Assembly: GCF_000002425.4 (NCBI RefSeq)
Contig: NC_037253.1
Location: forward strand, 2,259,039-2,323,038
Reading direction: 5' to 3'
Source of the DNA: Physcomitrium patens
Taxonomy: Eukaryota; Streptophyta; Bryopsida; Funariales; Funariaceae
Length of the DNA stretch: 64,000 bases
Part shown: piece after piece, positions 20,301 through 64,000 of the stretch
Layout of the letters: each line of letters opens with the position of its first letter
Position numbering within the stretch: the first letter of the stretch is position 1
Position numbers and translations under genes: made by a program
The notes under the pieces: generated by a model
Told to the model about the DNA's origin: nothing
What the model saw: only the letters and a program-made list of their open reading frames with translations
Database searches by the model: none

Positions 20301-21400
20301 CGCTCCACAACCACCTCAATCCAGCTCTCACGCTCTTCAACTCTCTTCTGCTCCCTCTCTCTCTCCCTCTTTTACGAGCCTCTCAAGAAATCCTCTACAA
20401 CCTCTTCTACCTGCAATCACGACCGTCCCCGCTCCGAAGCTTACCGCAATTCTCACGCCTGCGCTCTCAATTCCCGCCCACGCTAATCCCAACGACACAA
20501 GGTCCTATTCAAACAAGCGGCTGATGCGACACCAGGTCCTCCCCACGTCACGTTCCCCGTCATGCAACTCAGACAGCAGCGCGAATAGGCGCAACACGAA
20601 CCGTATCCAATTTCAATCCCTACGCTGACTCTACTCCACCACTCTCTCCCACCCCTCCTAATATACCTCACGAAATCGCTGCGCCGTCACCACGGAACGA
20701 ATTCCTTGTGTCGCACTTTCATGGTGGATCCCAGGATCTCGAATAAGTTCTCGAGGTCTCGAGAGCTGCAGGACCCTTGCGTTGTTCATGAAGGTGGGCC
20801 CCACTGTCAATGCCGTGCTCGGCAGGCTTGTCTATTAACAGCTGTCCAATGAAACAAAGCGAACGATCCCCCAACACCCAAGCAAAATATACTCGACCAG
20901 AAGCTTCATGCCCAGTTTCGACCCCAACCCACTCACGGCATCAGGGCATGTCCAGATAGACGTCGGAGGGGTCGGGACAGGAGGCCGCGAAAGCATCGCA
21001 GACGGCTCACGTTCACTGATGTCTCGCGGATGTCGCCATTCACGATTTCCAATGGTTCATGAACACACTCATCTACTGCAGTGCCGCATTGCGATGCCGT
21101 TGCGAACACAGTTGCGAACGCAGATGCGGAGCAACCCGATGACGAACACTTCTGTCCGGGTATCTGCGTCTTGCGGACGAATCCTGGTCGTTGTCAAGGA
21201 GTAGCTCCACCGCTTGGCCTTCAATCTCCTCAGCAGTGCTCAATTTCAGTGTTGCTGTCACACCGACATCTCTGTGTTGTATCCATTGAGCGCATGCACG
21301 CCGGCTGATGGTGATGGGGCTCCTTTGCTGTGCGTAAGGTAGACAACCCATTTCAGATAACTTAAGCATTTCAGCATATATGCAGTAGGTGCATAAATGG
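20301..21400 (-). other. HMA5 upstream region, GC-rich
   Basis: It holds the probable 5' UTR and promoter of the copper ATPase. Open frames here (for example 20908-21204 plus, 20483-20671 minus) have no known domain. From about 20371 on it is repeated in inverted orientation at the right end of the window. Confidence 0.5.
20659..20666 (-). promoter_or_regulatory. Possible HMA5 TATA element
   Basis: The minus strand reads GTATATTA about 360 bases upstream of the proposed ATG, inside GC-rich sequence. The same motif is in the right arm at 63705-63712. Position alone supports it. Confidence 0.25.
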
Positions 21401-21437
21401 AAAAAAAAAAAACAAAACAAAACAAAAAAAAAAAAAA
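21401..21437. repeat. Poly(A)-rich tract
   Basis: A run of A with three CAAAA interruptions, at the boundary between GC-rich and AT-rich sequence. The mirror copy at 62930-62970 differs slightly in run length. Confidence 0.9.
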
Positions 21438-21578
21438 CGGGAAAGATCCGGCAAGCTCCTCCTCACTGGCGCTTGGATTACTGCGAGGATGTGTAATACC
21501 ACATATCTGGCCTGCGAGCTATTGCGAGGTCCAATGCTCAATACCCTGACACATTGTGTTAGGATTTGATAAATTTAT

Positions 21579-22189
21579 ATACAATAATTTAAGCAAGTAA
21601 GATATCAATTGAGGATAGGACTTTTTTAGGATTAGGGTTTTAGTTGAGCCTAGCAGTGGAGGTTGCACTAAAGTGAGTCATAGTGCCTATAGTACCATTT
21701 GTAGTGGGATTGTAATAGTGTGAGGAGACAACATGACGATAACCACGACCTATGCTGTGATACTAAAAAGCAAGTTGACACATGCATCCCTGTCTCTTAC
21801 AACATTGAAGGTGTAGTACAAGAAGAATAGATCTAAGAAAGAATAATTGGAATTTGAATTGGTTGCTACTATTGAACAAATGGAGCGGCTCATAGATATC
21901 CATCCCATGCGAGCATCACCAACTAAGATCCTTTCTAAAAGATTTTTTTGTAGCAAAAAAGATTTCATACTAACAAAATGTGTTGTTTGGGTGATATTAA
22001 ACGAGGCCAAAGTACCAAAAGAAATGGATTATTTTTAAAAGAAAGTCATAATAGCATATATTGTGGAAGACAATCAATTACCAAAAATCATATAAGACTA
22101 TGTGACAAGTATCTCAAAAGAACTTGGAAAAGAATTGAATTTAAGTCGCAAATTAGATCATGGCTTCTTCTAGGTCATAGGAAAGGATG
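21579..22189 (+). other. Unidentified coding-like remnant
   Basis: Two overlapping frames read like eroded protein (MERLIDIHPMRASPTKILSK, FCSKKDFILTKCVVWVILNE, then GRQSITKNHIRLCDKYLK), with a frame change near 22035. I do not recognise a family. An LTR fragment ends it at 22190. The mirror copy is at 62178-62790. Confidence 0.3.
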
Positions 22190-22690
22190 TGTCAAGGACA
22201 TGAATCTCAAAGAAAGAAAACTCAATACACTCTTGTATCACTCAAAAAGATTAAAAAATCACTCAAAGATAGTAATATATTGAACTAGAATGGCTATTGC
22301 TAAAGACAAGAATATTAAAAAGTCTTAAAACAAGACTAAGGACTATAAAAGCAATGACAACAATGAAGAAGGCTTTACTCTTGCTTCTATATTTACTATC
22401 TAACAAGGAGCTATATGACAATGTTCTATAGGATCTCCAATACGTGTTCATTTTATAAAGCATATGTTTTAATTTGCAAGACAAGTTTCTTATATATGCA
22501 CCATATTGTTGCCATATTGTAACACAACTATATGGTAAAAATATAATCAAAAATAAAATTTTAATTAATATTTAATCATCTTAGTTCAATAGTAATTCAA
22601 GACATTTAAGCATGGCTTTTATAAAAATCTCTTAGTTTATTTTCTTATCTTAATAGCTAGTAGATTCAAGGTTGGTTAATAATTTTACCT
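22190..22690 (-). repeat. LTR fragment of the E2/E7 chromovirus family
   Basis: Read on the minus strand it matches the second half of the E2 LTR: ACACGTATTGGAGATCCTAT, a TTAGATAGTAAATATAGAAG block, GCAATAGCCATTCTAG and the terminal GTCCTTGACA. The upstream half is too degraded to follow. Its orientation is opposite to E7 next to it, so it is a separate insertion, probably a solo LTR. Mirror copy at 61677-62177. Confidence 0.6.
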
Positions 22691-23079
22691 TCTAAACTAT
22701 TAAATTTCTTTTATTGGCTTAGAAAGGCCATAAATTGATAAAAAAAAAAATAGTAAAAAAAGATAAATAATTAATATAATTGATACTAGACTTAAGTTGA
22801 AGATAAGATCAAACTAAAAAATCCCTAGGATAGATTGGATTGATATCCGAGGATTAACCATTTGTGGAACATACTTGAAATCAAACCTCCAGTCACTAAA
22901 ATGGCTGCCTAGAGCAAAATAGGGATTCATTTGAAGATCGGCAATTGGAGTTTGTAAGCTAACTTCAAGCTTATTCCAAAGTTCTAAGTCTTGTTTTCTT
23001 AGGATTTGGAATGAATTTTTAATTGTTGTTCAAAATCAAGATTTGTATCAATAATTTGGAATTTATGCAATATAATCAG

Positions 23080-23760
23080 GGCTAGCACTCTTCACTACTT
23101 CATGCAATTGATGTCACTGCTCAACATTGTCCAAAGAAGCGATACAATTACAAAATGAGGAATACTACCATCAAAGAAAATAGTATGTCAAAAAATAAGT
23201 TTGTCTAGCTACAATAGGGACAGTGTAGCTAGAACCTTATACAATATCTAATGAAGGTCTTATTCTCTCCTCAGAACCTTCTCTTTATTTTACAATAAAT
23301 ATTATTTTAGGACCTTAACATTACAAAGCCTCTACCTTATTAGATTCAAGAGCCTCAGCTTGTTTCTTAGATGAAGAATTTGCTAAAAGATATAGCATAT
23401 CTTTAATGAAGAAAACTAAACATATTCATATAGAAGTCACAGATGGTCGTCCATTGTCTTCAAAAAATTTTATTCATGAAACTCTTCCTATAGAAGCAAT
23501 AAATAATAATTATAGTAGCTTTGTAATATTTAATATGATTAAATCTTCTTCTAATTGAATAATTTTAGATTTATCATTGCTAAAAAATATAATCCAAAAA
23601 TAGATTGAATTTCTTGTAGTCTTGATTTATTTGAAAGTATAACTAAGAATATAATTGATCAAGTAGAAAGACATAAGTCTACTATAATTAAATCTATATT
23701 TGTAGGTGCAAAAGCTTTCTTGCATGTTAGAAAAAAAAGATTATCTTATGTCATTCATAT
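23080..23760 (+). pseudogene. E7 gag end and protease remnant
   Basis: It corresponds to E2 36380-37000: AQHCPKK (end of a zinc knuckle), then a decayed match to the E2 protease region ([10 protein letters not shown] in E2, heavily mutated here) and ILDLSLLKNI in place of [11 protein letters not shown]. Several stops. Confidence 0.55.
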
Positions 23761-23859
23761 TGTATCCATTTCAAATAGTAGAAAGACTTCAAGCGACATT
23801 CTAAGCCAATATTAAGATTTTCAAGATGTATTTGAGAGAAAGAATGCTGATACTCTACC

Positions 23860-25180
23860 AAAATATTATCCCTATGATTATTCAATTGACCTTTAAGAAG
23901 GAACTCAAGTGCCATTTGGACCAATTTATAATTTATCATAAAATAAATTGGCTAAATTCAAAAAGTATATTGAAGAAAATCTAGCCAAGAACTTTATATG
24001 CCATTCCAAATTTTCGACAAGAGTTCTAATTTTATTTGTAAAGAAAAAAGATGGATCATTGCAAATATGTATCGATTATCAAGGACTCAATAAAATCACC
24101 ATCAAGAATAGATATCTACTACCTTTGATATCAAGACTTCTTGATTAATTATATCAATCTAAGATCTATACAAAAATAGATCTATAAGGGGCATACAATT
24201 TGGTATGCATCAAAAAAGGAGATGAATAGAAGACTACATTTTGAACAATGTATAAACATTTTGAATATAATGACATGCCTTTTGGACTTATAAATGCACC
24301 AATAGCTTTTGAATATCTAATGAATGATGTTTTTTGAGAGTTTTTAGATGACTTTGTTGTTTGTAACCTAGATGATGTCTCAATCTATTCTAATAATATA
24401 TAAGAATATGAATTTTATGTTTGTTGTGTATTACAAAAACTAAGAAATACAGGACTTTATGCCAAGATAGAAAAGTGTATATTCTACACTACTCAAGTCG
24501 ACTTCTTAGAATACATCATTTCAAATGATGGATCCTAAAAAATTTCAAACTATTATAGTTTGGAAGATTTCAAAAATGGTAAGAAATGTCCAATGTTTTG
24601 TGGAATTTGCCAACTACTACCAGATCTTCATCAAGAACTTCTCTCAAGTTGCAACTCCACTTATCCATTTGACTTATAAAAACAAACTTTAATGAAATCA
24701 AGAAGTAAAAGTAATATTTAAAGCTTTGAATAAAACCTCTATTTTTACACCAATCTTATATTACATTGACTCTTGTAAGATATTTTGTTTCAAAATAGAT
24801 GCATCAAACTTTACTTTGGATGCCATATTATTATATATAGAAATAGATAATAAACTTCATCTAATAGCTTTTCATTCAAGAAAATTTCTAATAGCCAAGA
24901 TCAGCTATAAGATTTGTGTCAAAGAACTTCTTGCAATTATAATTTTTTTTGAAGAATGATGCAATTATCTAAAAGGTGCTTCTAATCCAATATTTATTTA
25001 TTCCAACCATAAGAATCTTAAATATTTTATATAAGAACCTGTTTTGAATCATGGCCAAGTCAATTGGAGTATGTCTTTATCAAGATTTGATTTTAAGATT
25101 ACTTATCGACCCAAAAAATACTAAAGTTTGTTAGACGCCTTTTTTAGATATTTTTTTCTTGTATCATAAGAAGAAAATAC
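23860..25180 (+). pseudogene. E7 RT and RNase H, broken
   Basis: 23948-24148 reads [15 protein letters not shown] and [20 protein letters not shown], as in E2. Further motifs are MPFGLINAP (about 24270), LDDVSIYS near 24370 and, at 24726-24959, FKIDASNFTLDAILLYIEID and [20 protein letters not shown], the RNase H. Stops occur at many CAA/CAG/CGA/TGG positions of E2. Confidence 0.78.
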
Positions 25181-25379
25181 ATCTTTTCATCAACAAAGCA
25201 TGATTCTCTTGATGTTGGAGCATTTTCATCTTCAAGCAATAAAATCAATATTGACTATTGATTCAACTCTTGTCAAGTAGTTTTGATCAAGTATATCCTC
25301 TGATCCTTTCATTTATGATACCAAGAATCTTTCTTCTAAGTCTTATGATGCTTCCAAGTTCAAGTTCAAAAAAAACCTA

Positions 25380-26488
25380 CTCTATTTTAAAAGACACTTA
25401 TACATTCTAGAAGGAAAAGCATGTTTATGTATTTTGTAAATATGTCATAACTTTCCAACGGCTTGACATTTTGGATACAACAAGACTTTAAAACTTATAT
25501 CTAGAGATTTTTAGTAGTCACAAGTATGAAAGGGAGTGAAAGACTTTGTTTAGTTATGTAACATTTTTTCAAGGTCAAAAACTCTTTATTATTGACTTTA
25601 TTGACTTTTCCAATTGTTACCTATTCAAGAACAACCATGGTCTTTTGTTTCTATGGATTTTATCAAGGATCTTTGAGTCTCAAATTCTTATGACTCTATA
25701 TTTATGATAATAGATCATTTCACCAAGATGGCACATTTTGTACCATGTACAAAAGCTATTATATATAAAAAAGTAGTCAAGCTTTTTCTTGATAATATCT
25801 ATCGATATTATGGATTACTTAAGTTAATTTAGTTTGTATCAAGATTTTAAAAAAATCTTTTCAAGATTCTAAAAGTAGACATAAAACTATATTTGGCTTT
25901 CTATTCTCAAATTAATGGACAAATAGAGTGTATAAATCAAGCTTTAGAATACTATTTAAGGTGCACCATCAATTACCAATAAGATGATTAGACAACTCTT
26001 TTGCTATTGACAAAGTTTGTTTATAATAACATAGTATATTTTTCTATATAATAAATATATATATATATAATTTTTTGCTAATTATGGTTATTATCCACAA
26101 CTTAATGGTTTTAATTTTTGAAAAGTTGATAATCATGTGGTGGAAGATTTGGCAAAATATTTATTTGAATTACATACAATAATGAAGGGACGTCTAAAAG
26201 ATGCTAAAAAACAATAAAAGAGCAATGTGGATGCTTATCATAAGGAACAACCTCATTTCTACATTGGTGATAAGGTATGGTTACTTTGTCATATTATTAA
26301 AATTATTTGTTCTTATGACAAGTTGAATTATCATAGATTTGGACGATTTCCTATTTGTGAACAAGTCAATTCAGCTGCTTATCAATTATATCTATCATAG
26401 TTTATGAAAATCTATTCCATATTTCACATGTTTTTTTAAAAGCCATATAAAACAATGAATATCCTAGGAAGAAGACAAATACCATCGT
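25380..26488 (+). pseudogene. E7 integrase, broken
   Basis: Fragments match E2 38650-39760: SMDFIKDL near 25650, VDHFTKMAHFVPCTKAI-type reading near 25720, YSQINGQIECINQALE near 25910 and YQ*DD*TTLLLL. The catalytic E region is partly kept, but long stretches are out of frame or missing. The frame ends at the Y LTR insertion. Confidence 0.65.
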
Positions 26489-27394
26489 TGTCGTACTGTA
26501 AATGCTTACAATATGTAAAAATTAATTAAAATATATTATATGTTAATAAATCTAGATGTGTGTTCGAGTGGCTAATAGATTAAATTAAAAGGAGTTGGTA
26601 TAAGAAACTTTACTTTGTTTCTTTACTTGTTTTGATTTTGACATTAAAAATAAAAAAATATAGGACCTAAATGTTTAGTATGAAGCCTTGGGAGAAGGTG
26701 GAAGCTTAAGGATGAAAATCTAAACTAGAAGGATGCTAATTGGAGGAATGAAAGCAAGTCATGGTGAGATGAAGGCAAGGAATGTGAAGGAGTTATAAGG
26801 AGTTGAAGGCGGCGCTTTCAAATCAAAGGTAGTAAGTAAGCGATTTTGTTTGTAGTAATGGTTGGAGCCATAACTTGAGTATTCGAACGAATTTTTGACT
26901 CAAACTTTTTGGAGAATGTACATTTTTGTGTTAAAAAGCTATACATATAAATTTCGTAGCATTTGAGCTTATATTTTGTGAGATATGAAGAAAATTGCAT
27001 GCGGGTATATAAAGACAAAGATTTGAAGCGGTTGTTAGGGTTTTCAAGATATCTCAAGATCCGCAATGAATTTAAAATTAAAAGTTGTTATAAAAGTTAA
27101 TAAGAATACATCAGTACCTCATGTAAAATTTGAGTTTGTTTGGACGGTCGGATTAGGAGATATGAGGTGTTGAAGTTTGGAAAAATCTCCACATAAGAAT
27201 ATATAAGGTTTTAGAGGATTTTATCATATTTTGGATGTTGTTGGTTACTTGAGGCTTGTGTATTTGGTATAATTGCTCAAAAGAGAAAATTTATATATAA
27301 ACTTAGGGCTTCCTTTATTTTGAAGCTTGATTGAATGATTAGTGACAGCCAGAAGTCTAACATTTTCTTAAGGCAAATTCTCTCTACCCCGACA
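26489..27394 (+). repeat. Solo LTR Y, copy A, inside E7
   Basis: About 906 bases from TGTCGTACTGTAAATGC to CTCTACCCCGACA. It splits the E7 reading between the RRQIPS segment and the IEVGSNQKFEVEEVLD segment, which are adjacent in E2 (39760-39815). No internal domain and no second Y LTR is present, so it is a solo LTR. A clean TSD was not found. Confidence 0.82.
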
Positions 27395-27610
27395 CTGCCC
27401 TCTATAGAAGTGGGTAGTAATCAAAAATTTGAGGTGGAAGAAGTTTTAGACTGAAGGTGGCACCGACATAGGTTGGAATATCTTATTCATTGGCTCAGAT
27501 ACAATATTAGTAAATAGACATGGGAGCCAATAAAAAATCCTACAAATGTAGTAGAGAAGGTCAAAGCTTTTTATCAATGACATCCATCAAAATTAAGATA
27601 AGAGTTAGTA
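27395..27610 (+). pseudogene. E7 chromodomain, broken
   Basis: It reads EVEEVLD, stop, RWHRHRLEYLIHWLRYNISK, stop, TWEPIKNPTNVVEKVKAFYQ, matching the E2 chromodomain (LEYLVHWRGYDISERTWEPS) and the chromo fold in general. Confidence 0.75.
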
Positions 27611-27699
27611 AACCTTTACTATAAAAGAATTACAATTTATGAAAGATTACATTCTACCTCCTATCCTTGTTTGTAATTTCTATATAATTGTGGTGTTAA

Positions 27700-28090
27700 G
27701 GATATGGAGAATCAATAGCCAACGAATTTAACTCAAGAGCCATCATTTACTAACTTATTAGATGAGATATTGCAACTATCAAAGCCTTTAAGACAAGATA
27801 ATAAGGGTGAAGACTTTCAAGAATGACATGTTTTTTTTCAAATAGATGGCAAGATACAATGTGTTTAATTTCATGACCTAGGAAGAGTCTTTCAATGTTT
27901 GTTGGTTTTATTGGAGGTAGAAACAACTCTTGATGGTATAACAAATATTTTATTTGAAAGAAATTTTGAAAGTTTTAACAATGATTAAATAATAGGGTGG
28001 TCTTTTTGCATTGAAATAGGACATTACCGATAGCCAAGAGGACCTATCAACTACCTTCAAAGAAAACAAATATTAAAAAATATGATAAAT
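27700..28090 (+). pseudogene. E7 post-chromodomain conserved region, broken
   Basis: Starting at NQ*PTNLTQEPSFTNLLDEI it follows E2 40080-40440 residue by residue: LVLLEVETTLDGITNILFER and GHYR, stop, PRGPINYLQRKQ. Two in-frame stops. The function of this region is unknown. Confidence 0.7.
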
Positions 28091-28167
28091 ATATTTTGCC
28101 GCATCTTAGACTTCTTCAATATGTAATTACTCTTTTTTGTAGAACTTATCTTTAGAAGGGGGAGTAA

Positions 28168-28314
28168 TGTCATAGATATATATCTACTATAATTATTATT
28201 TAGATAATATGAATAAATAGAAGTAGATAAAAATAGATTAATTTTATAATATCTTCTAAAATAACTTTTTAAAAGCTTTTTAGATATTATTTTGACTTTA
28301 TATGTATTTATAGA
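28168..28314 (+). repeat. E7 3' LTR, truncated
   Basis: It begins TGTCATAGATATATATC after the purine run AGAAGGGGGAGTAA, matching the E2 LTR start (TGTCACGGCCATAATC) and its AGTAGATAAAA block. It ends where E4 begins. Confidence 0.75.
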
Positions 28315-28699
28315 TGTGTCACGAATTTAGAATACTGATTGGAAATAAGAAGCTCAAGAAGAATTGGCAAGAATTAGATTAATGAGATGAATACAAGAAC
28401 AACACTAGAGAGGTGAGGTAGAGCTCGAAGAGGTGTATTGTCGAGAGTGAGGATCTCCTCAGTTCTAGCTCCTATATATACTACCAGCTAGGAAGCTTCT
28501 CAAGTAGCTTCCACAAACTAGGAAGCTTTTCAAGCAGCTTCTACGAGTTAGGAAGCTTCTCAAGCAGCTTCTACAATCTATAAAACTTCTCAAGGAGCTT
28601 CCATGAGCTAGGAGGCTTCTCAAGCAGCTTCCACTAACTATAAAGATTTTCTAGAATCTTCTAAAATCTTCTACAACTTCCTAGTATATGTCCTTAACA
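28315..28699 (-). repeat. E4 3' LTR with 30-base tandem repeat
   Basis: Minus-strand reading starts TGTTAAGGACATA and contains five to six imperfect 30-base units (28491-28640) built around GAAGCTTCTCAAGCAGCTTC, then GTATATATAGGAGC, a TATA-like element, before the R-U5 part. It ends near GTGTCACGAATT. Confidence 0.8.
28491..28640 (-). repeat. 30-base tandem repeat in E4 3' LTR
   Basis: Units begin TAGGAAGCTTCTCAAG and are exactly 30 bases apart. Each has a GAAGCTTC dimer, the core of a heat-shock element. Mirror copy at about 55725-55875. Confidence 0.85.
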
Positions 28700-28716
28700 T
28701 CACTCCTCCCTTTAGC
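28700..28716 (-). other. E4 polypurine tract
   Basis: The minus strand reads GCTAAAGGGAGGAGTGA just upstream of the 3' LTR. Confidence 0.7.
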
Positions 28717-28764
28717 TTCGAGGTCTTTGAGAAGCACTCCTATTGCGAGTTAGTACCAATGTAA

Positions 28765-29005
28765 GAAGTTGAAAATTTATCGCATAGTATCTGTAATATA
28801 CTCCAATTGTTGTTTGAGCGATAAATAGTTCATTGATCCTTGTAACCAACGATAGTGTCCTACGCCTTTGATTTTTGACCAGGCATGAACTTCCGTGTCT
28901 TCATTGTAAAAATGCCTTACAAATATTCCTTTGGAAAGATCATCCTAGGTAGGGTCTACCTCAAACACAATCATTAGTGACTTGTTACTATGTATCTTTT
29001 GTCGT
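28765..29005 (-). pseudogene. E4 post-chromodomain conserved region, broken
   Basis: The frame reads LMIVFEVDPT, stop, DDLSKGIFIRHF and then KGVGHYRWLQGSMNYLSLKQ. It aligns with E2 GMGHYRWLRGPINHLRRE and the E7 version, with strong divergence elsewhere. The downstream end is near the LTR. Confidence 0.65.
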
Positions 29006-29279
29006 CTTTGTAGTACAGGTAATTCTTCATCTCGGGGTCATTTTTGTGAGATATTCGGTTGACAAGACATAACTGGTATGGTATCTATCTCTTATCTATT
29101 CATATCACACCAAAAAATATAAGCACTAAACATAGAAGAATGGGCTCAGGTTACAGATTTATAGTCTCTAACTATGTCTTTTAGAGGTTCCTTCTCTCCT
29201 TTCTTTGTAAGACCGAGGATTAAGAGGCTTCAAGGAGAAGGAACTTCACTGTAAAACTTTCATCGAAAGGGCTTAGGTT

Positions 29280-30520
29280 TCTGAGGATAGTACGAGTGAA
29301 ACTCATGTACCTTTTGCGATGCATTGATAAGATTTTTCATTGGTTCCCATGTATGCTCATTGATATCATAGCCGCTCTAATGCACTATGTACTCCAATTT
29401 TTCTACTTACGTCGTAAATCTAGTACCTTTTTTACCTCGTATTCCTCGTGGTTCTCAATTTCAATACTAGGTGGCGGACATTGTACTCTTCTAGAATAAT
29501 CTGACTCTCGATAAGGTTCCAACAAAGAAACATGAAAGAGTAAGTGTACCTTCATAGCAACTGGTAATCCCAAATGATATGCCACTGGATTGATTTACTT
29601 CTTGATGACAAATGGTCCCAATCTCCGGTAGTCCAATTTATGACATGGTTGCTTGGTTTTGATATTCAGTTGAAGCAGCCATACTTTATCTCCAATTTTG
29701 AAAGAAGGTGCCTGATTCTGAAATTTGACTATGGACGCCTTGTAAGCTTCTTGGGCGGTTTGCAATTAAAGCTTCAACATAGTTTGAAGCTCCGATAGTT
29801 GTTTTGCAAATCCTTTAGTTGCCGAATTGTTATTGGTTGATGGTCTCAACAAATCAAGCTTCGGATGATATCCATAGTTGAAAAAGAATGGTGTTTGTTG
29901 AGTCGACGCATGAAGGGTGTTGTTGTATGAAAACTCAGCTAATGATAGATATGCAGTCCAATCATCTTGCTGATAGTTGATGCTGCATCGTAAATACTGC
30001 TCCAAAGTTTGATTCAACCATTTCATTTGGCCGTCAGTTTGAGGATGGAAAGCCAAAGAAAGCTTGATATCTACCTTCAATATCTCAAAGAGAGATCTCC
30101 ACAACTTTGATACGAATTGGATTCCTCAATCCGACACGATATCATCTAGTAAACCATAATATTGATATATACTATCAAGAAAGAGCCTTGATGTATCTTT
30201 GCTTATCGATGTTTTCTTGCAAGGAACAAAGTGTGCTATCTTTGTAAGCCGATCTACCACAACAAGGATGCTCTCAAATGAATTCGATGGCGGCAAGTTT
30301 ATAATGAAGTCCATGGAAACTGAAGATCATGGTCGATGTAGAATAGGCAATGGCTAAAAAAGACCATAAAGAGGATGCCAAGGGTTCTTGGATCTTAAAC
30401 AAATGTCACAAGAGAGGACAAAATCCTTGACATCCTTCTACATTTGGGGCCACCAAAAATCTCGAGAAATAAGTTTCAAGGTCTTATTGAATCCAAAATG
30501 TCCTACAGCAGGAAAGTCGT
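29280..30520 (-). pseudogene. E4 integrase and chromodomain, broken
   Basis: The zinc-binding part (about 30340-30520) reads FVLSCDIC. The core has MDFIINLPPSNSFESILVVV and DRLTKIAHFVPC (30126-30314), then WRSLFEILKVDIKLSLAFHP and QTDGQMKWLNQTLEQ (29766-30104); K-W replaces the E-R after QTDGQ, so the catalytic glutamate is lost. 29403-29585 has VHLLFHVSLLEPYRE. The chromodomain follows across a frameshift near 29400, as GYDINEHTWEPMKNL. Confidence 0.82.
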
Positions 30521-30527
30521 ATCGAGA

Positions 30528-31230
30528 TTAGAGAACTTGGAATCGTGTTGGTCTCTTTGGAATATACAACCGCTCCTCAATGTGTAAAAGATCTCCTTCT
30601 ATCTTGAACTTGTCATTATTTACACGTTGCATGATATTGAAGGCTACAGAATCTCCAATAATCACAATACGTACTTGGTTGAGGAAGTCAACATCAATTG
30701 GCATTATAGTAGAGCAAAGCTTGAATTGTTCTGACTTCAACAATGTTGTATACTATTGATCAAACGCTGCCTCTCCAGCCTTTGGCGCTAGATACGATCT
30801 CTTTGATAATACATTGGATAGTCTTTGTTGCTTCCTAAGCCAATAACTAATAATAAAATCAAATTTGGATAGCAGTATATTCTATCAAGCTTAACAACGA
30901 TTCAAAACCCGAGCCGACATGAAATACTCCAAATTCTTGTGATCCGTGTATACGGTCACCGGATGTGCAGCTCCTTCGAGAAAGTGACGCCACTCTTGGA
31001 AAGAATCTACTATCGCAAGAAGTTCTTTATCATGGATTTCATTAATGATCTCGACAGCACAAAACTTTCAAAAGTAGAACGCAACCAGATGAAGCTTCTC
31101 GTCTATGCCTATCTGTGAAAGTATAACTCTTATAGCAAACTCTGAAGCATCGATCTCCAAATAGAAGGCCTTTACAAAGTTCGGATGTATCAAGATTGGA
31201 GCCATAGTAAATGCCATCTTAAGATCTTAA
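30528..31230 (-). pseudogene. E4 RNase H and following linker, broken
   Basis: The minus strand reads [40 protein letters not shown] and [20 protein letters not shown], typical RNase H. A stop follows, and then the linker at 30528-30743 (LKSEQFKLCSTIMPIDVDF). It parallels E2 38067-38600. Confidence 0.78.
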
Positions 31231-31239
31231 AATACTTTT

Positions 31240-32735: not shown

Positions 32736-32736
32736 A

Positions 32737-34000: not shown

Positions 34001-34012
34001 AGCTCTGATATC
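34001..34012 (-). other. E4 primer binding site
   Basis: The minus strand reads GATATCAGAGCT just inside the 5' LTR, close to the initiator-Met tRNA complement (TGGTATCAGAGC) used by many plant elements. Confidence 0.6.
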
Positions 34013-51934: not shown

Positions 51935-52299
51935 ATTATATTATTTTCAATATTATTAGAATCCCATCAAACCCTGTTATTCTTGGTCTTTCTTGGTTAG
52001 AAATGCATAATCCATCCGTAGATTGGAGGTTACAAAAGATGACATTTTCTATAAAACATCCTGAGAGTAAGCCTGTTAGAAGATCTCGAATCAAAAATCT
52101 TTATTTATTGGAGCAAGAACATTTCTAACATCGTCCCAAGAAGGTACACCGTTTGTCATTTATGCGACTCCAACTAGCGGAGAGAAGATTTTGACAACAA
52201 GTATTTTGGAGCAATATATGGATTTTAAAGACGTGTTTCAAAAGAAGAATGTCAACATGCTACCGGAGCATCCATAATATGATTGTGTCATAGACTTAC

Positions 52300-53080: not shown

Positions 53081-53147
53081 TTGATTGACATGTAAAGACA
53101 AGCTTGAATAAAGATTTCTAGCGAAAAAAGTATTTTAAGATCTTAAG

Positions 53148-53837
53148 ATGGCATTTACTATGGCTCCAATCTTGATACATCCGAACTTTGTAAAGGCCTT
53201 CTATTTGGAGATCGATGCTTCAGAGTTTGCTATAAGAGTTATACTTTCACAGATAGGCATAGACGAGAAGCTTCATCTAGTTGCATTCTACTTTTCAAAG
53301 TTTTGTGCTGCCGAAATCAACAATGAAATCCTTGATAAAGAACTTCTTGCGATAGTGGATTCTTTCCAAGAGTGGCGTCACTTTCTCGAAGGAGCTGCAC
53401 ATCCGGTGACCGTATACATGGATTACAAGAATTTGGAGTATTTCATGTCGGCTCAGGTTTTGAATCGTTGTTAAGCTTGATGGAATATACTGCTATCCAA
53501 ATTTGATTTTATTATTATTTATTGGCTTAGGAAGCAACAAAGACTATCCAATACATTATCAAGGAGATCGTATCTAGCGCCAAAGGCTAGAGAGGCAGCG
53601 TTTGATCAAAAGTATACAACATTGTTGAAGTCAGAACAATTCAAGCTTTGCTCTACTATAATGCCAATTGATGTTGACTTCCTCAACCAAGTACGTATTG
53701 TGACTATTGGAGATTCTGTAGCCTTCAATATCATGCAACGTGTAAATAATGACAAGTTTAAGATAGAAGGAGATCTTTTACACATTGAGGAGCGGTTGTA
53801 TATTCCAAAGAGACCAACACGATTCCAAGTTCTCTAA
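53148..53837 (+). pseudogene. E4' RNase H and linker, broken
   Basis: 53148-53474 reads [40 protein letters not shown] and [20 protein letters not shown]. The linker 53622-53837 matches the left copy with one change (V-T-I-G). Confidence 0.78.
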
Positions 53838-55090
53838 TCTCGATACGACTTTCCTGCTGTAGGACATTTTGGATTCAATAAGACCTTGAAACTTATTTCT
53901 TGAGATTTTTGGTGGCCCCAAATGTAGAAGGATGTCAAGGATTTTGTCCTCTCTTGTGACATTTGTTTAAGATCTAAGAACCCTTGGCATCCTCCTTATG
54001 GTCTTTTTTAGCCATTGCCTATTCCACATCGACCATGATCTTCAGTTTCCATGGACTTCATTATAAACTTGCCGCCATCGAATTCATTTGAGAGCATCCT
54101 TGTTGTGGTAGATCGGCTTACAAAGATAGCACACTTTGTTCCTTGCAAGAAAACATCGATAAGCAAAGATACATCAAGGCTCTTTCTTGATAGTATATAT
54201 CAATATTATGGTTTACTAGATGATATCGTGTCGGATTGAGGAATCCAATTCGTATCAAATTTGTGGAGATCTCTCTTTGAGATATTGAAGGTAGATATCA
54301 AGCTTTCTTTGGCTTTCCATCCTCAAACTGACGGCCAAATGAAATGGTTGAATCAAACTTTGGAGCAGCATATACGATGCAGCATCAACTATCAGCAAGA
54401 TGATTGGACTGCATATCTATCATTAGCTGAGTTTTCATACAACAACACCCTTCATGCGTCGACTCAACAAACACCATTCTTTTTCAACTATGGATATCAT
54501 CCGAAGCGTGATTTGTTGAGACCATCAACCAATAACAATCCGGCAACTAAAGGATTTGCAAAACAACTATCGGAGCTTCAAACTATGTTGAAGCTTTAAT
54601 TGCAAACCGCCCAAGAAGCTTACAAGGCGTTCATAGTCAAATTTCAGAATCAGGCACCTACTTTCAAAATTGGAGATAAAGTATGGCTGCTTCGACGGAA
54701 TATCAAAACCAAGAAGCCCTATCATAAATTGGACTACAGGAGATTGGGACCATTTGTCATCCAGAAGTAAATCAATCCAATGGAATACCATTTGGGATTA
54801 TCGGCTTCTATGAAGGTACACTTACTCTTTCATGTTTCTTTGTTGGAACCTTATCGAGAGTCAGATTTTTCTAGAAGAGTACAATGTCCGCCACCTAGTA
54901 TTGAATTTGAGAACCTCAAGGAATACGAGGTAAAAAAGGTACTAGATTTACGACGTAAGTAGAAAAATTGGAGTACATAGTGCATTAGAGCGGCTATGAT
55001 ATCAATGAGCATACATGGGAACCAATGAAAAATCTTATCAATGCATCGCAAAAGGCAAAGGAGTTTCACTCGCACTATCCTCAGAAACCT
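53838..55090 (+). pseudogene. E4' integrase and chromodomain, broken
   Basis: Motifs as in E4: FVLSCDIC, MDFIINLPPSNSFESILVVV and QTDGQMKWLNQTLEQ, with the catalytic E also lost, then FHVSLLEPYRESDFSRRVQC and, after a frameshift, GYDINEHTWEPMKNLINASQ. A GGA-to-TGA change follows the DDIVSD motif in both arms. Confidence 0.82.
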
Positions 55091-55359
55091 AAGCCCTTTC
55101 GATGAAAGTTTTACAGTGAAGTTCCTTCTCCTTGAAGCCTCTTAATCCTCGGCCTTACAAAGAAAGGAGAGAAGGAACCTCTAAAAGACATAGTTAGAGA
55201 CTATAAATCTGTAACCTGAGCCCATTCTTCTATGTTTAGTGCTTATATTTTTTGGTGTGATATGAATAGATAAGAGATAGATACCATACCAGTTATGTCT
55301 TGTCAACCGAATATCTCACAAAAATGACCCCGAGATGAAGAATTACCTGTACTACAAAG

Positions 55360-55595
55360 ACGACAAAAGATACATAGTAACAAGTCGCTAATGATTGTGT
55401 TTGAGGTAGACCCTACCTAGGATGATCTTTCCAAAGGAATATTTATAAGGCATTTTTACAATGAAGACACGGAAGTTCATGCCTGGTCAAAAATCAAAGG
55501 CGTAGGACACTATCGTTGGTTACAAGGATCAATGAACTATTTGTCGCTCAAACAACAATTGGAGTATATTACAGATACTATGCGATAAATTTTCA
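55360..55595 (+). pseudogene. E4' post-chromodomain region, broken
   Basis: It reads LMIVFEVDPT, stop, DDLSKGIFIRHFYNEDTEVH and AWSKIKGVGHYRWLQGSMNY, the mirror of 28765-29005. Confidence 0.65.
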
Positions 55596-55665
55596 ACTTC
55601 TTACGTTGGTACTAACTCGCAATAGAAGTGCTTCTCAAAGACCTCGAAGCTAAAGAGAGGAGTGA

Positions 55666-56050
55666 TGTTAAGGACATACACTAGGAAGTTGTAGAAGATT
55701 TTAGAAGATTTTAGAAAATCTTTATAGTTAGTGGAAGCTGCTTGAGAAGCCTCTTAGCTCATGGAAGCTCCTTGAGAAGTTTTATAGATTGTAGAAGCTG
55801 CTTGAGAAGCTTCCTAACTCGTAGAAGCTGCTTGAAAAGCTTCCTAGTTTGTGGAAGCTACTTGAGAAGCTTCCTAGCTGGTAGTATATATAGGAGCTAG
55901 AACTGAGGAGATCCTCACTCTCGACAATACACCTCTTCGAGCTCTAGCTCACCTCTCTAGTGTTGTTCTTGTATTCATCTCATTAATCTAATTCTTGCCA
56001 ATTCTTCTTGAGCTTCTTATTTCCAATCAGTATTCTAAATTCGTGACACA
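55666..56050 (+). repeat. E4' 3' LTR
   Basis: Mirror of 28315-28699, starting TGTTAAGGACATACACTAGG, with the 30-base GAAGCTTC repeats and GTATATATAGG. Preceded by the purine run AAAGAGAGGAGTGA. Confidence 0.82.
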
Positions 56051-56970
56051 TCTACAAATACATATAAAGTCAAAATAATATCTAAAAAGCTTTTAAAAAG
56101 TTATTTTAGAAGATATTATAAAATTAATCTATTTTTATCTACTTCTATTTATTCATATTATCTAAATAATAATTATAGTAGATATATATCTATGACATTA
56201 CTCCCCCTTCTAAAGATAAGTTCTACAAAAAAGAGTAATTACATATTGAAGAAGTCTAAGATGCGGCAAAATATATTTATCAAATTTTTTAATATTTGTT
56301 TTCTTTGAAGGTAGTTGATAGGTCCTCTTGGCTATCGGTAATGTCCTATTTCAATGCAAAAAGACCACCCTATTATTTAATCATTGTTAAAACTTTCAAA
56401 ATTTTTTTCAAATAAAATATTTGTTATACCATCAAGAGTTGTTTCTACCTCCAATAAAACCAACAAACATTGAAAGACTCTTCCTAGGTCATGAAATTAA
56501 ACACATTGTATCTTGCCATCTATTTGAAAAAAAACATGTCATTCTTGAAAGTCTTCACCCTTATTATCTTGTCTTAAAGGCTTTGATAGTTGCAATATCT
56601 CATCTAATAAGTTAGTAAATGATGGCTCTTGAGTTAAATTCGTTGGCTATTGATTCTCCATATCCTTAACACCACAATTATATAGAAATTACAAACAAGG
56701 ATAGGAGGTAGAATGTAATCTTTCATAAATTGTAATTCTTTTATAGTAAAGGTTTACTATCTCTTATCTTAATTTTGATGGATGTCATTGATAAAAAGCT
56801 TTGACCTTCTCTACTACATTTGTAGGATTTTTTATTGGCTCCCATGTCTATTTACTAATATTGTATCTGAGCCAATGAATAAGATATTCCAACCTATGTC
56901 GGTGCCACCTTCAGTCTAAAACTTCTTCCACCTCAAATTTTTGATTACTACCCACTTCTATAGAGGGCAG

Positions 56971-57875
56971 TGTCGGGGTAGAGAGAATTTGCCTTAAGAA
57001 AATGTTAGACTTCTGGCTGTCACTAATCATTCAATCAAGCTTCAAAATAAAGGAAGCCCTAAGTTTATATATAAATTTTCTCTTTTGAGCAATTATACCA
57101 AATACACAAGCCTCAAGTAACCAACAACATCCAAAATATGATAAAATCCTCTAAAACCTTATATATTCTTATGTGGAGATTTTTCCAAACTTCAACACCT
57201 CATATCTCCTAATCCGACCGTCCAAACAAACTCAAATTTTACATGAGGTACTGATGTATTCTTATTAACTTTTATAACAACTTTTAATTTTAAATTCATT
57301 GCGGATCTTGAGATATCTTGAAAACCCTAACAGCCGCTTCAAATCTTTGTCTTTATATACCCGCATGCAATTTTCTTCATATCTCACAAAATATAAGCTC
57401 AAATGCTACGAAATTTATATGTATAGCTTTTTAACACAAAAATGTACATTCTCCAAAAAGTTTGAGTCAAAAATTCGTTCGAATACTCAAGTTATGGCTC
57501 CAACCATTACTACAAACAAAATCGCTTACTTACTACCTTTGATTTGAAAGCGCCGCCTTCAACTCCTTATAACTCCTTCACATTCCTTGCCTTCATCTCA
57601 CCATGACTTGCTTTCATTCCTCCAATTAGCATCCTTCTAGTTTAGATTTTCATCCTTAAGCTTCCACCTTCTCCCAAGGCTTCATACTAAACATTTAGGT
57701 CCTATATTTTTTTTTTTTAATGTCAAAATCAAAACAAGTAAAGAAACAAAATAAAGTTTCTTATACCAACTCCTTTTAATTTAATCTATTAGCCACTCGA
57801 ACACACATCTAGATTTATTAACATATAATATGTTTTAATTAATTTTTACATATTGTAAGCATTTACAGTACGACA
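56971..57875 (-). repeat. Solo LTR Y, copy D (mirror of copy A)
   Basis: TGTCGGGGTAGAGAG to TTACAGTACGACA, reverse complement of 26489-27394. Confidence 0.85.
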
Positions 57876-59179
57876 ACGATGGTATTTGTCTTCTTTCTAG
57901 GATATTCATTGTTTTATATGGCTTTTAAAAAAACATGTGAAATATGGAATAGATTTTCATAGACTATGATAGATATAATTGATAAGCAACTGAATTGACT
58001 TGTTCACAAATAGGAAATCGTCCAAATCTATGATAATTCAACTTGTCATAAGAACAAATAATTTTAATAATATGACAAAGTAACCATACCTTATCACCAA
58101 TGTAGAAATGAGGTTGTTCCTTATGATAAGCATCCACATTGCTCTTTTATTGTTTTTTAGCATCTTTTAGACGTCCCTTCATTATTGTATGTAATTCAAA
58201 TAAATATTTTGCCAAATCTTCCACCACATGATTATCAACTTTTCAAAAATTAAAACCATTAAGTTGTGGATAATAACCATAATTAGCAAAAAATTATATA
58301 TATATATATATTTATTATATAGAAAAATATACTATGTTATTATAAACAAACTTTGTCAATAGCAAAAGAGTTGTCTAATCATCTTATTGGTAATTGATGG
58401 TGCACCTTAAATAGTATTCTAAAGCTTGATTTATACACTCTATTTGTCCATTAATTTGAGAATAGAAAGCCAAATATAGTTTTATGTCTACTTTTAGAAT
58501 CTTGAAAAGATTTTTTTAAAATCTTGATACAAACTAAATTAACTTAAGTAATCCATAATATCGATAGATATTATCAAGAAAAAGCTTGACTACTTTTTTA
58601 TATATAATAGCTTTTGTACATGGTACAAAATGTGCCATCTTGGTGAAATGATCTATTATCATAAATATAGAGTCATAAGAATTTGAGACTCAAAGATCCT
58701 TGATAAAATCCATAGAAACAAAAGACCATGGTTGTTCTTGAATAGGTAACAATTGGAAAAGTCAATAAAGTCAATAATAAAGAGTTTTTGACCTTGAAAA
58801 AATGTTACATAACTAAACAAAGTCTTTCACTCCCTTTCATACTTGTGACTACTAAAAATCTCTAGATATAAGTTTTAAAGTCTTGTTGTATCCAAAATGT
58901 CAAGCCGTTGGAAAGTTATGACATATTTACAAAATACATAAACATGCTTTTCCTTCTAGAATGTATAAGTGTCTTTTAAAATAGAGTAGGTTTTTTTTGA
59001 ACTTGAACTTGGAAGCATCATAAGACTTAGAAGAAAGATTCTTGGTATCATAAATGAAAGGATCAGAGGATATACTTGATCAAAACTACTTGACAAGAGT
59101 TGAATCAATAGTCAATATTGATTTTATTGCTTGAAGATGAAAATGCTCCAACATCAAGAGAATCATGCTTTGTTGATGA

Positions 59180-60500
59180 AAAGATGTATTTTCTTCTTAT
59201 GATACAAGAAAAAAATATCTAAAAAAGGCGTCTAACAAACTTTAGTATTTTTTGGGTCGATAAGTAATCTTAAAATCAAATCTTGATAAAGACATACTCC
59301 AATTGACTTGGCCATGATTCAAAACAGGTTCTTATATAAAATATTTAAGATTCTTATGGTTGGAATAAATAAATATTGGATTAGAAGCACCTTTTAGATA
59401 ATTGCATCATTCTTCAAAAAAAATTATAATTGCAAGAAGTTCTTTGACACAAATCTTATAGCTGATCTTGGCTATTAGAAATTTTCTTGAATGAAAAGCT
59501 ATTAGATGAAGTTTATTATCTATTTCTATATATAATAATATGGCATCCAAAGTAAAGTTTGATGCATCTATTTTGAAACAAAATATCTTACAAGAGTCAA
59601 TGTAATATAAGATTGGTGTAAAAATAGAGGTTTTATTCAAAGCTTTAAATATTGCTTTTACTTCTTGATTTCATTAAAGTTTGTTTTTATAAGTCAAATG
59701 GATAAGTGGAGTTGCAACTTGAGAGAAGTTCTTGATGAAGATCTGGTAGTAGTTGGCAAATTCCACAAAACATTGGACATTTCTTACCATTTTTGAAATC
59801 TTCCAAACTATAATAGTTTGAAATTTTTTAGGATCCATCATTTGAAATGATGTATTCTAAGAAGTCGACTTGAGTAGTGTAGAATATACACTTTTCTATC
59901 TTGGCATAAAGTCCTGTATTTCTTAGTTTTTGTAATACACAACAAACATAAAATTCATATTCTTATATATTATTAGAATAGATTGAGACATCATCTAGGT
60001 TACAAACAACAAAGTCATCTAAAAACTCTCAAAAAACATCATTCATTAGATATTCAAAAGCTATTGGTGCATTTATAAGTCCAAAAGGCATGTCATTATA
60101 TTCAAAATGTTTATACATTGTTCAAAATGTAGTCTTCTATTCATCTCTTTTTTTGATGCATACCAAATTGTATGCCCCTTATAGATCTATTTTTGTATAG
60201 ATCTTAGATTGATATAATTAATCAAGAAGTCTTGATATCAAAGGTAGTAGATATCTATTCTTGATGGTGATTTTATTGAGTCCTTGATAATCGATACATA
60301 TTTGCAATGATCCATCTTTTTTCTTTACAAATAAAATTAGAACTCTTGCCAAAAATTTGGAATGGCATATAAAGTTCTTGGCTAGATTTTCTTCAATATA
60401 CTTTTTGAATTTAGCCAATTTATTTTATGATAAATTATAAATTGGTCCAAATGGCACTTGAGTTCCTTCTTAAAGGTCAATTGAATAATCATAGGGATAA
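59180..60500 (-). pseudogene. E7' RT and RNase H, broken
   Basis: 60218-60418 reads [20 protein letters not shown] and [20 protein letters not shown]; 59407-59640 reads FKIDASNFTLDAILLYIEID. One residue differs from the left copy after CHSKF (L-A against S-T). Confidence 0.75.
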
Positions 60501-61676
60501 TATTTTGGTAGAGTATCAGCATTCTTTCTCTCAAATACATCTTGAAAATCTTAATATTGGCTTAGAATGTCGCTTGAAGTCTTTCTACTATTTGAAATGG
60601 ATACAATATGAATGACATAAGATAATCTTTTTTTTCTAACATGCAAGAAAGCTTTTGCACCTACAAATATAGATTTAATTATAGTAGACTTATGTCTTTC
60701 TACTTGATCAATTATATTCTTAGTTATACTTTCAAATAAATCAAGACTACAAGAAATTCAATCTATTTTTGGATTATATTTTTTTAGCAATAATAAATCC
60801 AAAATTATTCAATTAGAAGAAGATTTAATCATATTAAATATTACAAAGCTACTATAATTATTATTTATTGCTTCTATAGGAAGAGTTTCATGAATAAATT
60901 TTTTTGAAGACAATGGACGACCATCTGTGACTTCTATATGAATATGTTTAGTTTTCTTCATTAAAGATATGCTATATCTTTTAGCAAATTCTTCATCTAA
61001 GAAACAAGCTGAGGCTCTTGAATCTAATAAGGTAGAGGCTTTGTGATATTAAGGTCCTAAAATAACATTTATTGTAAAATAAAGAGAAGGTTCTGAGGAG
61101 AGAATAAGACCTTCATTAGATATTGTATAAGGTTCTAGCTACACTGTCCCTATTGTAGCTAGACAAACTTATTTTTTGACATACTATTTTCTTTGATGGT
61201 AGTATTCCTCATTTTGTAATTGCATCGCTTCTTTGGACAATGTTGAGCAGTGACACCAATTGCATGAAGTAGTGAAGAGTGCTAGCCCTGATTATATTGC
61301 ATAAATTCCAAATTATTGATACAAATCTTGATTTTGAACAACAATTAAAAATTCATTCCAAATCCTAAGAAAACAAGACTTAGAACTTTGGAATAAGCTT
61401 GAAGCTAGCTTACAAACTCCAATTGCCGATCTTCAAATGAATCCCTATTTTGCTCTAGGCAGCCATTTTAGTGACTGGAGGTTTGATTTCAAGTATGTTC
61501 CACAAATGGTTAATCCTCGGATATCAATCCAATCTATCCTAGGGATTTTTTAGTTTGATCTTATCTTCAACTTAAGTCTAGTATCAATTATATTAATTAT
61601 TTATCTTTTTTATACTATTTTTTTTTTATCAATTTATGGCCTTTCTAAGCCAATAAAAGAAATTTAATAGTTTAGA

Positions 61677-62177
61677 AGGTAAAATTATTAACCAACCTTG
61701 AATCTACTAGCTATTAAGATAAGAAAATAAACTAAGAGATTTTTATAAAAGCCATGCTTAAATGTCTTGAATTACTATTGAACTAAGATGATTAAATATT
61801 AATTAAAATTTTATTTTTGATTATATTTTTACCATATAGTTGTGTTACAATATGGCAACAATATGGTGCATATATAAGAAACTTGTCTTGCAAATTAAAA
61901 CATATGCTTTATAAAATGAACACGTATTGGAGATCCTATAGAACATTGTTATATAGCTCCTTGTTAGATAGTAAATATAGAAGCAAGAGTAAAGCCTTCT
62001 TCATTGTTGTCATTGCTTTTATAGTCCTTAGTCTTGTTTTAAGACTTTTTAATATTCTTGTCTTTAGCAATAGCCATTCTAGTTCAATATATTACTATCT
62101 TTGAGTGACTTTTTAATCTTTTTGAGTGATACAAGAGTGTATTGAGTTTTCTTTCTTTGAGATTCATGTCCTTGACA
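61677..62177 (+). repeat. LTR fragment of E2/E7 family, right arm
   Basis: Mirror of 22190-22690; ends GTCCTTGACA. Confidence 0.6.
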
Positions 62178-62790
62178 CATCCTTTCCTATGACCTAGAAG
62201 AAGCCATGATCTAATTTGCGACTTAAATTCAATTCTTTTCCAAGTTCTTTTGAGATACTTGTCACATAGTCTTATATGATTTTTGGTAATTGATTGTCTT
62301 CCACAATATATGCTATTATGACTTTCTTTTAAAAATAATCCATTTCTTTTGGTACTTTGGCCTCGTTTAATATCACCCAAACAACACATTTTGTTAGTAT
62401 GAAATCTTTTTTGCTACAAAAAAATCTTTTAGAAAGGATCTTAGTTGGTGATGCTCGCATGGGATGGATATCTATGAGCCGCTCCATTTGTGCAATAGTA
62501 GCAACCAATTCAAATTCCAATTATTCTTTCTTAGATCTATTCTTCTTGTACTACACCTTCAATGTTGTAAGAGACAGGGATGCATGTGTCAACTTGCTTT
62601 TTAGTATCACAGCATAGGTCGTGGTTATCGTCATGTTGTCTCCTCACACTATTACAATCCCACTACAAATGGTACTATAGGCACTATGACTCACTTTAGT
62701 GCAACCTCCACTGCTAGGCTCAACTAAAACCCTAATCCTAAAAAAGTCCTATCCTCAATTGATATCTTACTTGCTTAAATTATTGTATAT
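62178..62790 (-). other. Unidentified coding-like remnant, right arm
   Basis: Mirror of 21579-22189, with one residue different in the MERLIDIHPMR frame. Confidence 0.3.
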
Positions 62791-62929
62791 AAATTTATCA
62801 AATCCTAACACAATGTGCCAGGGTATTGAGCATTGGACCTCGCAATCGCTCGCAGGCCAGATATGTGGTATTACACATCCTCGCAGTAATCCAAGCGCCA
62901 GTGAGGAGGAGCTTGCCGGATCTTTCCCG

Positions 62930-62970
62930 TTTTTTTTTTTTTTTGTTTTGTTTTGTTTTGTTTTTTTTTT
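62930..62970. repeat. Poly(T)-rich tract, right arm
   Basis: Mirror of the poly(A) tract at 21401-21437 with small length differences. Confidence 0.9.
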
Positions 62971-64000
62971 CCATTTATGCACCTACTGCATATATGCTGA
63001 AATGCTTAAGTTATCTGAAATGGGTTGTCTACCTTACGCACAGCAAAGGAGCCCCATCACCATCAGCCGGCGTGCATGCGCTCAATGGATACAACACAGA
63101 GATGTCGGTGTGACAGCAACACTGAAATTGAGCACTGCTGAGGAGATTGAAGGCCAAGCGGTGGAGCTACTCCTTGACAACGACCAGGATTCGTCCGCAA
63201 GACGCAGATACCCGGACAGAAGTGTTCGTCATCGGGTTGCTCCGCATCTGCGTTCGCAACTGTGTTCGCAACGGCATCGCAATGCGGCACTGCAGTAGAT
63301 GAGTGTGTTCATGAACCATTGGAAATCGTGAATGGCGACATCCGCGAGACATCAGTGAACGTGAGCCGTCTGCGATGCTTTCGCGGCCTCCTGTCCCGAC
63401 CCCTCCGACGTCTATCTGGACATGCCCTGATGCCGTGAGTGGGTTGGGGTCGAAACTGGGCATGAAGCTTCTGGTCGAGTATATTTTGCTTGGGTGTTGG
63501 GGGATCGTTCGCTTTGTTTCATTGGACAGCTGTTAATAGACAAGCCTGCCGAGCACGGCATTGACAGTGGGGCCCACCTTCATGAACAACGCAAGGGTCC
63601 TGCAGCTCTCGAGACCTCGAGAACTTATTCGAGATCCTGGGATCCACCATGAAAGTGCGACACAAGGAATTCGTTCCGTGGTGACGGCGCAGCGATTTCG
63701 TGAGGTATATTAGGAGGGGTGGGAGAGAGTGGTGGAGTAGAGTCAGCGTAGGGATTGAAATTGGATACGGTTCGTGTTGCGCCTATTCGCGCTGCTGTCT
63801 GAGTTGCATGACGGGGAACGTGACGTGGGGAGGACCTGGTGTCGCATCAGCCGCTTGTTTGAATAGGACCTTGTGTCGTTGGGATTAGCGTGGGCGGGAA
63901 TTGAGAGCGCAGGCGTGAGAATTGCGGTAAGCTTCGGAGCGGGGACGGTCGTGATTGCAGGTAGAAGAGGTTGTAGAGGATTCTTGAGAGGCTCGAAAAG
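62971..64000 (+). other. Duplicated HMA5 upstream region
   Basis: GC-rich mirror of 20371-21400. If the arm continues, the plus strand would reach an HMA5 start codon near position 64071, just outside the window. No gene is seen within the segment itself. Confidence 0.6.

Follow-up and report, generated by a model that had tools for sequence, protein, structure and literature searches.

We describe a giant inverted repeat in the genome of the moss Physcomitrium patens, found in a 64,000-nucleotide stretch (contig NC_037253.1 of assembly GCF_000002425.4, positions 2,259,039 to 2,323,038 of the forward strand; hereafter the window, with positions counted from its first letter). The two arms, each of at least 12 kb, lie around a spacer of about 19 kb; the left arm starts beside an intact gene for an HMA5-type copper P1B-ATPase, and both arms carry the same dead Ty3/gypsy retroelements in mirrored order. 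Judging from the sequence, the locus behaves as an inverted segmental duplication in the nuclear DNA of P. patens that is younger than the insertions inside its arms. For its origin, we favor, at something near an even chance, a young duplication in which annealing at gypsy homology was followed by outward copying and, later, by uneven gene conversion.

Results

When the window was compared with itself by BLASTN, one inverted match was hit: 20369-32782 against 64000-51583, with 98.374% identity over 12,422 columns (190 mismatches and 12 gap bases). This self-match is far beyond chance, and outright chance was thus excluded as its source. Global alignment of both arm stretches gave 12,410 aligned columns, of which 192 are mismatched, plus 8 indels (1-3 bp each), and the coordinates of the paired positions sum to 84364-84371, in agreement with the 84365-84371 of an earlier description of this DNA made from its letters alone (hereafter the original prediction). 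A giant inverted repeat with arms of at least 12 kb, as claimed there, was hence borne out by both alignments. Aligning the arms had also been proposed as a way to obtain their identity and indels; over the near-identical parts, we find 99.0% identity over 12,055 columns, with 116 mismatches and the same 8 small indels. The description of the arms as near-identical throughout therefore holds for this main part, but the identity is uneven along the arms. Similarly, near-identity does reach 32427 and 51938 at the inner border, but the match continues for about 355 bp further, to 32782 and 51583, at 78.6% identity (hereafter the inner tails); the predicted spacer of 19.5 kb is correct if these divergent tails are counted in, and 18.8 kb remains otherwise. 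Inward of 32782 and 51583 the homology between both loci ends, and no BLAST match in the self-comparison of the window joins the left and right loci further inward. At the outer side, the right arm still pairs with the left at the final base of the window; the outer border is therefore set by the window end, and the arm length of 12 kb is a minimum.

The largest indel between the arms is 3 bp, neither arm has a private insertion across the aligned 12.4 kb, and there is no N anywhere in the window. In terms of copies longer than 1 kb that lie in opposite orientation with at least 90% identity, the arms constitute an inverted segmental duplication, given the 12,055 columns at 99.0%. An artefact of a palindromic read or hairpin with a near-zero spacer was excluded by the 18.8-kb spacer and by the divergence of the arms.

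From the outside inward, each arm is composed of a CpG-rich stretch of 1.2 kb upstream of the HMA5-type gene, AT-rich sequence, and two Ty3/gypsy elements, gypsy1 and gypsy2 (Table 1). The arms share the decay of these elements, as had been noticed in the original prediction: in the scored frames, gypsy1 has 27 premature stops, every one of which occurs in both arms with none private, and so do 12 of the 17 in gypsy2 (3 are left-only and 2 right-only; the tail was excluded), that is, 39/44 for both elements together. In both arms, furthermore, gypsy1 contains an LTR-like insert (LTR, long terminal repeat), which is probably the insertion previously called "Y LTR". The common stops indicate that the copying followed the death of both elements and, with no private insertion in either arm, support the earlier proposal of an inverted duplication that postdates the insertions it carries. 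A single mobile element that had inserted twice, independently, was excluded as the explanation, since the order of gene-upstream DNA, gypsy1 (together with its LTR-like insert), and gypsy2 is mirrored between the arms and the stops are common.

The two copies of gypsy2 are not equally complete. In the left copy, LTR-like ends at about 28.3-28.7 and 34.0-34.4 kb enclose matches to gag, protease, reverse transcriptase, RNase H, and integrase, whereas the matches in the right copy span protease to integrase plus the 3′ LTR, with neither a gag match nor a second LTR match. The distance between the LTRs of the left copy is 0.27 by the Kimura two-parameter model (K2P) in a 179-column core and 0.39 over the full LTRs including tandem repeats. 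These LTRs hold unlike tandem repeats at 28481-28669 and 34249-34358 (30 bp and 24 bp units), and the divergence is hence considered to be partly repeat turnover. A protein search with a piece of the gypsy2 reverse transcriptase gave 84% as the top identity among the best 120 of 982 matches, which are proteins only and of no use for polarity at the DNA level. The gypsy families at the locus stand unmatched to the named families of P. patens. We also noticed that one LTR type flanks gypsy1 as two parts in opposite orientation (22190-22510 and 28189-28310), as if an older small inversion had occurred inside the arm.

Divergence between the arms climbs inward, from 0.4% at 20370-28343 (30 substitutions in 7,971 columns of the global alignment) through 2.1% at 28344-32427 (86 in 4,084, with no indel) to 21% in the tail (76 in 355). 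A fit of a three-state hidden Markov model placed the steps at ~28.5 kb, which is inside a gypsy2 LTR, and at 32.42 kb. When CpG/CHG sites, the three densest clusters, and 8 columns regarded as misaligned are set aside, 24/7,532 outer sites and 42/3,588 inner sites differ (P = 2e-7), and the comparison of the two zones by transversions only gave P = 6e-5. Because the divergence is uneven beyond CpG/CHG effects, gene conversion between the arms, which the original prediction had put forward, is a plausible candidate.

The differences in the 2% zone are, furthermore, clustered: 20 neighbor pairs lie within 5 bp, compared with a mean of 8.6 and a maximum of 20 in 5,000 shuffles. As to polarity at 28301-32427, the sites at which gypsy1 and the spacer element gypsy3 agree comprise 23 right-derived, 13 left-derived, and 17 neither, in an outgroup alignment that is only 55-71% identical over the zones counted, which leaves these counts indecisive. 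With such distant outgroups, the mixed polarity inside the clusters appears to fit conversion from another copy of the family better than a mutation burst in one arm. Coding changes in this zone amount to 14 synonymous and 36 nonsynonymous, and 14.2 synonymous changes are expected under neutrality; this neutral pattern and the 12 common stops exclude independent young insertions of gypsy2 as the cause of the 2% zone. We once took the poverty of indels in the inner zone, striking when judged against the number of substitutions, as proof of a separate origin but dropped this argument, because only ~2.3 indels are expected there from homopolymer runs of at least 5, with a chance of none of ~0.1 (the expectation was computed with 9 outer indels, while the global alignment counts 8).

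The tails are 355 bp long and 78.6% identical without any indel. Just before the tail, the arms are identical for 227 bp (the last difference is at 32200 and the next at 32428), and the identity then falls directly to 79%. The switch at 32427/32428 thus lies within gypsy2, and homology is lost at 32782, so that the inner junction is inside a transposable element (TE) present on both sides, as in a duplication primed by TE homology. The K2P distance of the tails, 0.26, resembles that of the gypsy2 LTR core and is below that of the full LTRs. In the protease frame, the tail has 28 synonymous and 42 nonsynonymous changes (dS 0.39, dN 0.17), a synonymous excess with P = 0.0009 when all changes are regarded as equally likely. 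The tail sequences, therefore, lean toward two distinct insertions of one family without establishing them.

The HMA5-type gene beside the left arm is free of internal stops, and its ATG at 20300 is 70 bp from the first left-arm base matched in the window. Two of its exon open reading frames (ORFs) match the HMA, E1-E2 ATPase, and hydrolase domains. The CpG-rich stretch upstream of the gene shows 2 differences between the arms in 1,188 sites (two columns judged misaligned were excluded). The gene sits in GC-rich DNA (54-60% per kb), and the adjoining TE DNA is AT-rich (mostly 26-41% GC).

The best named matches to the encoded protein are from P. patens, namely UniProt A0A7I4BUW4 (96%, covering the full length) and RefSeq XP_024387168.1 (a shorter gene model, with 100% in its best local alignment), both of which we take to rest on the same assembly; Ceratodon purpureus comes next with 86% and 82%. 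In direct comparison with the protein of the window, A0A7I4BUW4 has a single substitution (T39S) and 37 residues missing, XP_024387168.1 has zero substitutions, and two archive-derived proteins each have one substitution, at another residue. As the protein fits the P. patens records, the DNA of the window is considered to be from P. patens or a very close relative. The two versions of residue 39 under one species name hint at two near-identical HMA5-type loci, the second of which would be a gene in the other copy; alternatively, accession variation may cause this difference, given the other single changes in the archive-derived proteins.

Further retroelement sequences were seen in the window. 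The LTRs of gypsy3 are 95% identical (K2P 0.045); this element appears fairly young, and its gag, protease, and integrase matches are in separate open frames. One of the decayed ORFs beside the right junction has a weak, below-cutoff gag match. An older inverted pair of 1.27 kb at 78% identity, LTR-like and resembling the arm insert, lies inside the spacer (41490-42760 and 46216-47485). The left flank and the spacer are connected by an inverted LTR-like pair (7208-7789 and 47491-48072, 92%), and direct matches connect 6201-7217 with 43313-44672. A remnant of a Copia-type reverse transcriptase (RVT_2) was found outside the arms at 13733-14164. No tRNA was found with ARAGORN, and there was no Rfam match at gathering scores.

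Table 1. Positions and strands of the features in the window (a dot marks a feature with no strand given)
Feature	Position	Strand	Basis
Intact HMA5-type copper P1B-ATPase gene; 5 exons, 4 GT..AG introns, 1000 aa	16087-20300	-	gene model and protein comparison
Left arm, near-identical part; 5′ side of the HMA5-type gene, gypsy1, most of gypsy2	20370-32427	+	BLASTN and global alignment
CpG-rich stretch upstream of the HMA5 ATG, in both arms (partner ~62810-64000)	20370-21560	.	arm alignment
gypsy1, dead Ty3/gypsy element, mirrored in the right arm	~23115-28310	+	domain matches and stop comparison
LTR-like insert within gypsy1, both arms (right copy ~56971-57873)	26486-27394	.	BLASTN self-comparison
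gypsy2; left copy complete, with both LTRs; right copy cut at 51583	~28315-34376	-	domain and LTR matches; outer edges by eye
Cluster of 15 arm differences in ~120 bp; candidate ectopic conversion tract	29555-29674	.	arm alignment
Second cluster, 8 arm differences in 59 bp	31030-31088	.	arm alignment
Left inner tail, in the protease region of gypsy2; 78.6% identity with the right tail	32428-32782	+	global alignment
Spacer, 18.8 kb; holds the 5′ portion of the left gypsy2, gypsy3, more LTR-like fragments, and, beside the right junction, decayed ORFs	32783-51582	.	self-comparison and domain matches
gypsy3, Ty3/gypsy element in the spacer	34722-41086	+	domain and LTR matches
Right inner tail; putative fragment of another gypsy2-family copy (favored) or older part of the same duplication (rival)	51583-51937	-	global alignment
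Right arm, near-identical part; reaches the window end	51938-64000	-	BLASTN and global alignment

Discussion

In the course of events that we tentatively prefer, the left locus with its complete gypsy2 would be the source; the gag match and two LTRs at this locus, with no gag or second LTR match at the right one, were counted for this course. A broken end at the right locus, inside an old fragment of the gypsy2 family, would have annealed to the left gypsy2 in mirror orientation, and repair synthesis, either as break-induced replication or by template switching, may then have proceeded outward across gypsy1 as far as the promoter side of the HMA5-type gene and probably on through the gene itself. 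The inner end of the right arm would be a hybrid element, in which ~355 bp of target-site sequence is followed outward by donor sequence. The similar K2P distances of the tails and of the gypsy2 LTR core were counted for two copies of one burst. The abrupt fall in identity within gypsy2, the clustering of differences in the inner zone, and the facile homologous recombination (PMC4990234) and near-identical arrayed genes (PMC3045890, PMC3729371) of P. patens were also counted in favor of this course. Later conversion might have been uneven: between the arms, keeping the gene-side 8 kb most alike, or into the inner 4 kb with other gypsy2 copies as donors, or by both routes.

Several points weigh against this course of events. 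A two-state hidden Markov model shows only the step at 32.42 kb and short clusters, with no step at the edge of gypsy2; the three-state model is better by just 3 units of the Bayesian information criterion, and the zone cut at 28344, the gypsy2 edge, was set after inspection of the data. With separate treatment of transitions and transversions, the expectation for the tail is 21.5 synonymous changes and P rises from 0.0009 to 0.06, which weakens the synonymous excess as proof of a second TE copy and made us shift some weight toward conversion within an older duplication. The synonymous fraction of the tail is not significantly different from that of the 2% zone (Fisher P = 0.24), and one of the three tail stops is common to both tails, as a common dead ancestor would give. 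Also, within the window one HMA5-type gene is seen, and the outer breakpoint and the putative second gene would lie outside its view.

Alternatively, an older inverted duplication might have reached 32782 and 51583 from the start, and conversion from arm to arm would have homogenized all that lies outward of 32427, leaving the tail to tell the true age. This is a possibility of about one in three, in our estimation; it would fit the unevenness of the divergence along the arms, the common tail stop, and a tail that is compatible with neutral decay under transition bias, and gene conversion has indeed been suggested behind the concerted evolution of arrayed genes in P. patens (PMC3045890; here and below, papers are cited for those parts of their text that were available). 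Against it stand the 355 bp at 21% divergence without an indel and the abrupt jump to 21% after an identical run of 227 bp. In addition, the age of the tail would be about that of the gypsy2 insertion (K2P 0.26 versus 0.27-0.39), leaving little time for a duplication after the death of the element.

An assembly artefact, namely a repeat-induced misjoin or a duplicated contig with its inner border in the repeat family, appears improbable. The inner border is inside a repeated element family, as a misjoin would have it, and the window ends within the right arm, but the window has no N, and the structured divergence, with 86 substitutions and zero indels in the inner 4 kb, is unlike read error. 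Gametophyte DNA was presumably the material sequenced for the P. patens assembly. If so, uncollapsed alleles are unlikely, because the haploid gametophyte is dominant in the life cycle (PMC13120521). The residue-39 difference between two P. patens proteins in the databases, such as two loci would produce, also speaks against an artefact, with accession variation as the alternative. A palindrome under selection for function, for example for dosage or for conversion-based protection of the copper-ATPase gene, is very unlikely; the visible arm starts beside an intact gene, and its gene-side 1.2 kb has few differences, but youth alone accounts for the low divergence and the second gene is not seen in the window. 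P. patens is monoicous, and the setting of a non-recombining (sex) chromosome, which the original prediction had mentioned for structures of this kind, finds no support.

As for the age, a synonymous distance of 0.85 is tied to 45 million years in PMC1952061, where the rate is printed without its exponent. On this scale, and as rough orders only, the outer arms would have separated ~0.2 million years ago and the inner zone 0.6-1.1 million years ago; gypsy3 would date to ~2.4 million years, and both the gypsy2 LTR core and the tails to ~14 million years.

If outward copying from annealed gypsy sequence is true, the sequence alone reveals where a large inverted duplication started, namely inside a retrotransposon, and how it changed later. 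The locus would then offer a natural setting in which to test for conversion between inverted copies, in a plant where gene targeting relies on homologous recombination, and through the duplication a copper-transport gene may have gained a second copy. It is a speculative and rather doubtful generalization that, in a haploid-dominant moss with an exceptional capacity for homologous recombination, dead retrotransposons seed outward-copying inverted duplications of the genes beside them, in which conversion that starts near the promoter would keep the gene side alike while the TE side drifts and other TE copies overwrite it, leaving a readable gradient of divergence.

Judging by titles and abstract openings among the matches listed, we recognized no publication describing this locus. 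P. patens is noted for facile homologous recombination (PMC4990234), for TE islands composed mainly of the gypsy family RLG1 (PMC7466625), and for near-identical arrayed genes with possible concerted evolution (PMC3045890, PMC3729371). The arrayed genes and segmental duplications are among the closest relatives of our case, being in the same species or nearly so, with high identity and with conversion suggested in print (PMC3045890, PMC3729371); the present copies are, however, inverted, with a mostly TE-filled arm, a 19-kb spacer, and a second gene that is only presumed. Among other plants, palindromes on the W chromosome of willow have inverted arms of ~20 kb with a mean identity of >99%, LTR elements, and evidence of conversion, but they are located in the sex-determining region, the first has a spacer of ~3 kb, and the test for conversion drew on a second species (PMC7023750). 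Rearrangements mediated by Ty1 in yeast, one of which is an inverted duplication, likewise have retroelements at their junctions, and break-induced replication or dicentric breakage was proposed for them (PMC3102749); that is an experimental system selected for rearrangements, whereas in our case the presumed seed has ~79% identity and the pathway is our inference. In Caenorhabditis, long inverted repeats that contain gene pairs also have near-identical inverted arms, for which active maintenance was suggested, but the intergenic arms of the two main examples measure 124 and 160 bp, and the structure recurs across species (PMC1803023). The kind of event is thus already known, and in P. patens it is seen in some detail.

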